Assembly: GCF_040954645.1 (NCBI RefSeq)
Contig: NC_092803.1
Coordinates: forward strand, 59,913,984 to 59,977,983
DNA: 64,000 nt
Source of the DNA: Diabrotica undecimpunctata
Taxonomy: Eukaryota > Arthropoda > Insecta > Coleoptera > Chrysomelidae
Reading direction: 5' to 3'
The notes under the pieces are model-generated. The model saw only the letters and a program-made list of their open reading frames with translations, was not told the DNA's origin and made no database searches. A program made the position numbers and the translations under genes. Below, piece after piece: positions 32,796 through 37,089 of the stretch; the stretch's first letter is position 1, and the number at the start of each line of letters is the position of its first letter.

Positions 32796-32999
32796 TAAAA
32801 ATATAATAATCCATATTAGGCTACTGTCTGGTATAAAATATGTACCAAATATTAAGGGGAAATTGATTAACAACTAGGCTACGAACAACTTAAACAGATA
32901 TAAAATAAATTCAACATTTTAACAACATTTAAAACAACAAACGCATTGAGATTTATTTTATCTAAAACCAAACCTAGTTATAAACAAGAAAGAACAAAT

Positions 33000-35692
33000 G
33001 AGGAGCATACATGCAAAAACCGATAAATCCATTTTTGAATTTTTTAACCTGCATATGGATTAGTATCAATTAAGTAGCCCTCTATGTTTCTAGAATATAA
33101 AATTCCAACAAAAACCGATATTTTTCCTTTAAAATGATGAACAAAGTTCACCAGTTCGAGCAAATGCCGATAAATCCAAATTTCAAGCAAAACCCGATAT
33201 ATCTTTAAATAATGAATTCGCCATCTATGTTGTAAATCCATAATATAGTGCGTACTTATAGCAGGTTTGTTTATGCTGTTTTGGGCTTCGTTTTATAGTA
33301 GTAGCATAAACAAAGAAGTATACTTCTTTTCCTATGGTAGTAGTTTGTAAATTAAAAACGAGAGGACTGTGTTAACATAAACACGTTGTCGGAATTAAGG
33401 GGGCAAGAATTAAGAGGTTATGTTATGTTGATTATGAATTACGTATTAAGCAGTTGTTTAACATACTCTTATTAAGTTTTAACAATGGAAGCAAGTGTGT
33501 TGGAAATTAGTATAGGAAATAGGAAAAAACAGAAAAGTGAGACCAAGAGGCAGAAATTGCAAAAGCAAAGGTAACAGGTAAAGAATAAATTAAGACGTTC
33601 GTTACCTAATCCATTTTTTGTTTTAGATATCGTGATAGCGATCCTCATTTGGAAAACTTTACAATAGTTTGCAAACATAATGGCCCTACTTATCACTGCA
33701 ATAGCATTGCTGAAAGTGACATTCGAGCCATTCGAAATAAAATTTTTGAAAATAATGTGAAGTCAGAACAGGATATCAAATTGTGTCATTACATGTCAGT
33801 AGTTCCAATTGAAAGGAAAAGATCGACAACAGAACGAGCAATCAAGGGGCGTAACTTTTCCGTACACTACTTCTTGTCGAAAAGAGTCAGCAAGAAAAAA
33901 GTTCAGGTATGTCAGGCATTTTTTTTGAAATGTGTGAATATTAAAAAAGATCGCATAAACTACGTTGCTAAAACATTGTCAGACGGAAATATTCCAAAAG
34001 AAAATCGGGGTGGAGATCACGTGTCCACAAAATCTGTTGTCAAAAAGAATAAAATAAGAGAGTTTATTGGTAAACTACAAGGAAAAGAAAGTCATTATAA
34101 TAGAAAGAAAGTAAGACGAATTTATTTGGCCGCTGATCTAAGCATAAAGAAATTACATGGCATGTACCTCACTCAATGCGACCCTGAACATAATGTAAAC
34201 TTTTCGATGTTTAGAAGGATATTCGTTAATGATTTTAACATTGGGTTTTCTACTCCAGCATCAGATGTGTGCGCACAATGTACCAGACTTAAATTCAAAA
34301 TTAGAACGGAAATTAACGAGGTAAAGAAAAGAGAGTTTCGAACTGAGTTAAGTATCCACCAAAAGAGGGCTAATGCATTTTATAGTCTGCTAAAAGAAAC
34401 TCCTGAAAATTCCATTACATTCTGCTTTGATATGCAGCAGGTGCAGCCTTTGCCCAAAACACCTATTAATGATGCGTTTTATGCACAGCAGATTAGCATG
34501 TATGTTTTTTGCTGCGTTGATAGCCAATCCAAACATCCAACTTTTTTTACGTGGACTGAAGATCAGGCAGGTAGAGGATCAATTGAAATAGGTTCTGCAT
34601 TTGTAAATTACTTGGATTCTTTAGAGTACGATAATATTACGACACTTCGCCTCTTTTGCGACGGATGCGGTGGACAAAACAAAAACTCCCATATTATTCA
34701 TTCGCTGTACTTCTGGCTTAGATTTAAAGCTCCAGTTCAAGTAACAGAAATATTACTTGTATTTCCAGTCAGGGGCCATTCGTATTTGCCAGCAGACAGG
34801 GTATTTGGGAGAGTAGAAAAGCTTCTAAGAAAAAAAGCCACAATTCTCTCTAGAGAGGAATATGAAGAAATTTACAAACAAATTGGAGTTGTTAAAAAGA
34901 TAGGCACTGATTGGAGATTGTTTAATATGAAAGAGCTTCAAGTTGGCTTGAAAAAAGTAAAAGCGCTAGCCGATACAAAGAAAATTGTAATAAAAAAATT
35001 TAAAAATGGCAAATTCATAAAAATACGTTCATTCCAAAACTATTATTTTACCAGTGGGTTGGAAAATTTTGAAAAACTTTTGAAACCAAAATTTTCCGAT
35101 GCTGAGTTAACCATCACAGAAAAAGATTTGACTCGGGGTATCCCCGAAAAGAAAAAAAAAATCCCTTAAACACTTACTAAATCAACAGTTCGATAAAGAT
35201 TGGGAGAAATTACAAGAACTTGACTGGTACCGGGAATTGCTTAATGGCAAAAGTTCAAATGAAAAGGATGAGGAGAAAGAGGAAGAGGAGACATGTGACT
35301 GCCTGGAAGAGGAACCAACACTTCAGATTTAACTTGACTTTTTTACTTTTTTCAACTTGTTAAACAATAAAAATAATTTTCTACATTCTAGTTCGTTTAT
35401 TTTCTTTTATTAACAACAAAAATATGGTGCTCTTGCAAATATCTTTCAGGCAAAAACCGATAAATTTCGGTTTTCAAACAAAACCCGATAAATTAAAAAA
35501 AAATGACAAATAAAAACAGTAAAAAAAGATAATATATTAAAATTCTAGGATTTTATTACATGACTTACTACTACTATTTAATTCCAATATGATGTTTTTT
35601 TAAATTATTATGGGATTTTGCTGTATAAGTTTTTGGCATTTATCTCGAAATTGGAAAAAGTGGATTTATCGGTTTTTGCATGTATGCTCCTC
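33000..35692 (+). mobile_element. 2.69-kb DNA transposon: 32-bp TIRs, AAAT duplication, intron-containing DDD/E transposase
   Basis: Ends are perfect inverted repeats of 32 bp (33000-33031 and 35661-35692, starting GAGGAGCATACATGC), flanked by AAAT at 32996-32999 and 35693-35696. Subterminal copies of a CRAAAMCCGATAAAT-like motif occur at 33107, 33160 and 33187 on the left and 35450 and 35477 on the right. It encodes one transposase. The 4-bp duplication and the protein type would fit the Sola superfamily, but I cannot confirm the assignment. Confidence 0.95.
33485..35332 (+). CDS. DDD/E transposase, two exons, frameshifted near the C-terminus
   Basis: Exon 1 is 33485-33570, starting at the first ATG (MEASVLEISIGNRKK). 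A 56-nt GT-AG intron (33571-33626) follows, then exon 2 from 33627, in frame with a 506-codon open stretch ending at 35169. The fold signals are CAQC (near 34270), FCFDMQQ (Asp 34429-34431), RLFCDGCGGQNKN (Asp 34660-34662) and GHSYLPADRVFGRVEK (Asp 34795-34797, Glu 34815-34817), the expected spacing of a DDD/E transposase. A run of ten A at about 35152-35161 shifts the frame. With nine A the protein would continue about 55 residues (WEKLQELDWYRELLNGK, acidic end) to TAA at 35330-35332. Otherwise undamaged, so young. Without the extra A it would look intact. Confidence 0.88.
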
Positions 35693-35696
35693 AAAT

Positions 35697-36064
35697 AATC
35701 GTATTTATAAAATACCTTGTGAATGCGATCAGTTTTATTTAGGTGAATCATCAAGATCAATAAATGTTAAAATAAGTGATCATCAATCTTATATTAAAAA
35801 CAGAGAATTTATTACATCTCAAATATGTAAACACACATGAGAAAATAAACATAGGAAACAAGGGATCGATTCAAATATAGTCCTAAAAGAAGCAGATAGT
35901 AAGAAGAGAAAAATCAAAGAATCTGTTCTAATTATGTTAACTAAGACCAATTATGACGAAAATTCTCTTGCAAAATGCAATAGGAGCTGGTTACCCATAT
36001 TAAAAGGGGAACCTAATAAAAGGAAGATGCCACTATTAGTAAGTCCGATTTGCAAGACTGAGTA
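35697..36064 (+). pseudogene. GIY-YIG endonuclease domain of PLE-1
   Basis: IYKIPCECDQFYLGESSRSI and RISDHQSYIK-like residues give the family signature of Penelope-like elements (the Y..G pair is kept as FYLGE). TGA at 35838-35840 interrupts, then the frame continues (VLKEADSKKRKIKESVLIML, CNRSWLPIL) to TAA near 36064. In an active element this domain nicks DNA to prime reverse transcription. Confidence 0.85.
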
Positions 36065-36734: not shown

Positions 36735-37065
36735 AAATCAAAGATGACAACAATACCGTAATATAAAGGGCTTATCAGGAAAAATGAGAAGAAAGGAAAT
36801 AAGTACATCTTAACAACATTTAAAACAACCAAAACACTGGGATCTGTCCTGTCCAAAACCAAACCCAACAATATACAAGGAAGATCAAAGAATTGCATCT
36901 AGAGATACCATGTGAACACAACAATTTTCTATGTGAGAGAAACTGCAAGACCACTAAGTGTCAGGATAAATGAGCATAAAACATTCATCAAGAGCAGAGA
37001 CTTCGACAAATCCTAGATATATAAACATGCCTGGGATGACGAGTACCGAGTACAATGAATTGCTG
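36735..37065 (+). pseudogene. Penelope-like element fragment PLE-2
   Basis: MTTIPYYKGLIRKNEKKGNK, then ILTTFKTTKTLGSVLSKTKP, the same segment as in PLE-1 with several substitutions. The GIY-YIG part (NNFYVRETARPLSVRINEHK, 36915-36980) appears after a frameshift, and a TAG falls at about 37015. Only the RT end and endonuclease start remain. Confidence 0.85.
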
Positions 37066-37089
37066 CATCAATAATTATGAAAAACGTAT

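Follow-up and report, generated by a model that had tools for sequence, protein, structure and literature searches.

A young cut-and-paste transposon, probably of the Sola superfamily, inside a putative Penelope-like element of Diabrotica undecimpunctata

A 64,000-nucleotide stretch of Diabrotica undecimpunctata DNA (contig NC_092803.1; hereafter the window) contains, within a putative Penelope-like element, a real, young and well-delimited cut-and-paste transposon of 2693 bp that represents a new family within a known kind. We assign it, with a probability of about 0.82, to the autonomous-type cut-and-paste transposons of the Sola superfamily and, within it, most likely to Sola2, with a putatively spliced gene for a transposase that resembles DUF7869 (Pfam PF25273) and would have an RNase H fold and a catalytic triad of three aspartates (DDD) (Table 1).

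The boundaries of the element were drawn to the base. The first and the last 32 bases of the element are exact reverse complements of one another, in line with the perfect terminal inverted repeats (TIRs) reported in a preliminary description of this DNA, and the AAAT target site duplication (TSD) given there is found on both sides; a repeat finder returned an inverted repeat of 97% over 38 bp, flanking T/A included. When the D. undecimpunctata genome (1.74 Gb) was searched with a 31-nucleotide TIR allowing up to two mismatches, 103 places were recovered, compared with 0 for the reversed control. These matches, together with the other copies and their TSDs, rule out TIRs that arose by chance or as a local inverted duplication, the latter an objection that the preliminary description had itself raised.

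Deletion of the element with one AAAT joined ...SYKQERTN to NRIYKIPCECDQFYLGE (NRIYKIPCEC...) in a single frame. A stronger check, which does not depend on this frame, came from paralogues of the target. With a 150-bp piece of the Penelope-like element as query, 1,503 first-look candidates came up in the genome, and seven of the 39 other matches scored (L076 to L082) were, like the second copy in the window, uninterrupted paralogues of the target. All eight aligned free of gaps across the junction, the window paralogue having a 1-base gap about 11 bases downstream of it; L077 and L078, which adjoin each other and are not independent, carry AAAT at the exact insertion site, and the frame of L076 is open through that site. 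These paralogues support the exact empty site proposed earlier. The restoration of an open GIY-YIG frame, also proposed, held in part: the joined frame is continuous, but stops are present in its upstream part, from which we conclude that the target was already a degenerate copy, and the GIY-YIG-like block after the junction was recognized by eye, Pfam calling no GIY-YIG there. In paralogue L081 the upstream sequence codes for a reverse transcriptase (Pfam RVT_1, 2.9e-07), and this match and the by-eye block support the naming of the target as Penelope-like. The two diverged copies of this Penelope-like element (32914-35837 and 36805-37082) lie about 1 kb apart, the transposon not counted.

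A search with 205 bp of the left end scored 40 of 122 candidates, so that 39 others were retrieved beside the window copy. Both ends were present in 25 copies, the window copy included, and 15 did not have both within the stretch taken. Between the window copy and each of L009 to L013 there are 3 to 10 differences over 2,637-2,692 aligned bases (99.6-99.9% identity), and these five copies lie at other sites with TSDs of their own, which indicates recent spread and agrees with the youth first ascribed to the element; the lowest identity to the window copy among the 25 is 92.6%. Among the roughly 100 TIR matches listed, inspection by eye revealed no short non-autonomous derivatives: the opposite pairs all lay about 2.5 kb or more apart, and the smallest of 12 close-looking pairs measured 2,505 bp. 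An exact 4-bp TSD flanks 21 of the 25 two-ended copies (AATT 11, AAAT 3, AACT 3, AAGT 1, ATAT 1, ATTT 1 and AGTT 1), against a chance expectation of 0.7% per copy and a result of 2 of 125 in shifted controls. Different ends or another duplication length in the other copies, which the preliminary description had named as grounds against a transposon, were thus not what these copies displayed.

Gene model P0001, a database protein of D. undecimpunctata, starts at the ATG at 33485 and is joined to the long frame across a 56-bp intron, whose GT..AG borders are conserved in 23 of 25 copies, the region being missing in the other two; the transcript would accordingly be spliced in vivo. Near the end of the second exon lies a run of A that numbers nine in 13 of the 25 copies, including four of the five closest, and ten in the window copy. 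The frame is open from ATG to stop in one of the 25 (L009), where it encodes about 596 amino acids; with one or more copies open in the assembly, this young family could serve for tests of excision and insertion. The list of open reading frames holds no second long frame within the element. The translation of copy L011 (C4:107754467-107757767) equals P0001 over its first 532 residues, a match that identifies the genome searched as that of D. undecimpunctata; L011 has eight A, and the P0001 model skips that stretch as though it were an intron. This second intron looks like an annotation artefact bridging the frameshift, and a caution follows for the element's gene model, which apparently spans a frameshift with a false intron.

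The blocks that had been singled out in the transposase (FCFDMQQ, CDGCGGQNKN and others) are present in the protein. Three aspartates, D274, D351 and D396, were invariant in 89 alignment rows and in all eight DUF7869 proteins compared, and they are the putative catalytic triad; E403 was considered as the third catalytic residue and is disfavoured because K or R takes its place in two of those eight proteins. The catalytic domain is predicted to adopt an integrase/Mos1 (RNase H-like) fold, and the likeness to the Mos1 mariner transposase and to retroviral integrases lies in this predicted fold; Mos1 also employs three aspartates. The search of the PDB gave no sequence match to Mos1 or retroviral integrases, and Tc1/mariner elements duplicate TA (PMC10741241). 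Two PDB sequence matches to fusion constructs (E 7.7e-4 and 0.38) were taken as spurious, and the NCBIfam search returned nothing meaningful. Relatives P0022, P0109 and P0043 scored 25.7, 33.5 and 33.6 bits against DUF7869, for which the cut-off is 26 bits. Anatomy and predicted fold together suggest that DUF7869 is the DDD transposase of these elements, which would give a concrete function to proteins that insect annotations carry as 'uncharacterized protein'.

The same domain is abundant elsewhere in the genome, with 8,786 first-look candidate loci, of which 150 were scored, all over the cut-off. PF25273 had no match in 14 control genomes, and no relatives were confirmed in viral contigs or prokaryotic genome contigs. 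We examined six other DUF7869 families, 25-51% identical to the window family in protein, through 23 loci: eight were the top matches for one family, and three were taken for each of the other five, whose copies are probably young because they were mostly chosen for equal frame length. Both ends were found in 22 of the 23 loci, L055 having no recognisable ends, and every one of these 22 copies has an exact 4-bp TSD (ATAT 11, AATT 4, ATTT 3, AAAT 2 and ATGT 2). Their termini share the form 5'-GA(G/A), being GAGGAG in three families and GAAGCG or GAATC in the others. Three copies of the P0109 family (L049, L052 and L053) lie inside (TA)n microsatellites, consistent with an ATAT target. Several DUF7869 families have near-identical copies in the genome, which suggests several recently active lineages. 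DUF7869 also appears in models with a host-gene name or fused to other sequence, such as P0010 and P0201 (an 842-amino-acid model of Phaedon cochleariae; rpabc2 of Holotrichia oblita).

When the element's family and the six others were taken together, all 43 exact TSDs have A as their first base and T as their last. A pyrimidine precedes the TSD in 47 of 47 copies and a purine follows it in 46 of 47, counts that include the three copies in (TA)n and the pair L031 and L044, which share their flanks. These flank counts yield the target rule Y-ANNT-R, which sharpens the ANNT rule for such elements. L031 and L044 lie on different contigs, and their common flanks point either to one insertion later duplicated with its surroundings or to an assembly duplicate.

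We then compared this anatomy with printed descriptions. The passages on Sola in PMC10741241 give a DDD transposase, 4-bp TSDs, a length of mostly 2-9 kb and TIRs of 11-1124 bp, and those on Sola2 in PMC3627910 give AWWT as its TSD type. The DDD triad (a feature of Sola in general), the 4-bp TSD, the length of 2693 bp and the 32-bp TIR of our element all agree with these accounts, and the AWWT type, to which 16 of 21 exact TSDs of its family and 20 of 22 of the six others conform, points to Sola2. The fit to Sola that had been suggested earlier on the duplication length is in this way supported and narrowed. The dictyostelid Sola2 elements, as described in the relevant passages of PMC3627910, have an 888-amino-acid transposase (DFa-2), TIRs of 12-21 bp and Fanzor1 proteins; in contrast, the element described here has a transposase of about 596 amino acids in its open copy, 32-bp TIRs and no second long frame. 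No description of the Diabrotica element was found in the titles, the openings of abstracts and the passages on Sola, Sola2, AWWT and Diabrotica that the literature search returned, and a protein search with a distant DUF7869 family, aimed at named Sola2 proteins, reached none. The earlier view of an under-described system holds for the protein, which Pfam continues to list as a domain of unknown function, but not for the anatomy, which is ordinary for Sola.

Several observations weigh against the assignment. The element was filed under Sola and Sola2 by its anatomy, the comparison being with printed descriptions, and its mobility is read from sequence. The window protein scores 22.9 bits against DUF7869, under the 26-bit cut-off; with Foldseek alone, no PDB entry reached E <= 0.001; and ten A in place of nine mean that the last part of the frame is shifted in the window copy. 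As to the duplications, four of the 25 copies are without an exact 4-bp TSD: L033 has one mismatch between its two TSD copies, L027 is flanked by TAATA at either end, and L031 and L044 would descend from one insertion, both flanks being common to them. The TSDs of three of the 22 copies from other families, those in (TA)n runs, are indistinguishable from the repeat, and non-AWWT duplications make up 5 of 21 in the element's family (AACT 3, AAGT 1, AGTT 1) and 2 of 22 in the others (ATGT 2). Finally, since all 43 TSDs run from A to T, they can equally well be parsed as a 2-bp duplication beside ends that read T-GAGG...CCTC-A, and the empty site is equally consistent with both parses; we kept to 4 bp, following the usage in print for Sola.

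Part of this evidence bears on the alternatives to a Sola2 element. DUF7869 elements could form a DDD superfamily of their own, as yet without a name, whose duplication of 4 bp (or 2 bp) is AT-rich; PF25273, the family to which we refer the proteins of the element and its six relatives, is curated by Pfam as a family of unknown function, and a literature search gave no paper with DUF7869 or four signature strings. We regard this as unlikely, given that the testable features in the printed Sola accounts all agree with the element. It is just as doubtful that DUF7869 marks a large insect DDD lineage apart from the published Sola2, with a common Y-ANNT-R rule and family-specific subterminal arrays that diverge along with the transposase, and that, among the DNA transposons of rootworm beetles, it is one of the more successful lineages. 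The duplication length alone would also admit other superfamilies that duplicate 4 bp, namely piggyBac, Kolobok, Sola3 or Ginger. Kolobok and piggyBac duplicate TTAA, as does Sola3, and TTAA occurs in 0 of the 43 exact TSDs; furthermore, no other transposase or integrase Pfam family was matched by the window protein, P0109, P0043 or P0022, so that an origin in one of these superfamilies is very improbable. That the frame is a domesticated host gene flanked by inverted repeats by chance might be argued from its annotation as 'uncharacterized protein' in D. undecimpunctata; the near-identical copies elsewhere, each with its own TSD, and the 103 TIR matches in the genome leave this reading hardly any credence. 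A Sola element, most likely Sola2, is thus the assignment that we retain.

Table 1. Positions in the window of the transposon, its gene and termini, and the Penelope-like target
Feature	Position	Strand	Remark
Complete DNA transposon, 2693 bp	33000..35692	+	TIR pair and TSD; aligned with 24 other two-ended copies
Left TSD copy, AAAT	32996..32999		
Right TSD copy, AAAT	35693..35696		
Left TIR, 32 bp, perfect, starts GAGGAG	33000..33031	+	
Right TIR	35661..35692	-	
Transposase exon 1 (MEASVLEIS...)	33485..33570	+	Start and splice same as in P0001
Intron, 56 bp, GT..AG	33571..33626	+	Putative; splicing from gene model P0001
Transposase exon 2, frame broken near end	33627..35332	+	DUF7869 match in 34495-34875
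First putative catalytic Asp, D274 (frame from 33610)	34429..34431	+	Invariant
Second putative catalytic Asp, D351	34660..34662	+	Invariant
Third putative catalytic Asp, D396	34795..34797	+	Invariant
Run of 10 A, frameshift of last ~55 codons	35152..35161	+	
Left array of CCGATAWAT, at 33020, 33167 and 33194	33020..33202	+	
Right array of CCGATAWAT, at 35457(+), 35485(+) and 35664(-)	35457..35672		
Left part of interrupted Penelope-like element, one TSD copy included	32914..32999	+	77.6% to 36805-36889
Right part of Penelope-like element, GIY-YIG-like block by eye	35697..35837	+	Without Pfam match
Second Penelope-like copy in window, uninterrupted paralogous site	36805..37082	+	

The outer parts of the element carry a repeated motif. 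CCGATAWAT (CCGATAAAT arrays) occurs six times in the element, always near its ends, and nowhere else in the 64-kb window, and a count of six was reached by 0 of 100 window shuffles. Two of the six sites lie in the TIRs, and the motif is present 3 to 6 times per copy in all 25 two-ended copies. These subterminal motifs may be transposase binding sites, and they add candidates of this kind to the description of such elements. In the mechanism that we propose, the transposase would bind the TIRs, and perhaps also the repeated subterminal motifs, would excise the element at its GAGGAG ends and would transfer its strands, with a 4-bp stagger, to an AT-rich palindromic target, Y-ANNT-R, after which gap repair would convert the stagger into the target duplication. 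Three further families, each represented by one copy, have other short words that recur in the outer 450 bp, selected for being repeated at the ends and absent from the middle and taken with no control; in one of these families the word is found at three places only, two of them in the TIRs.
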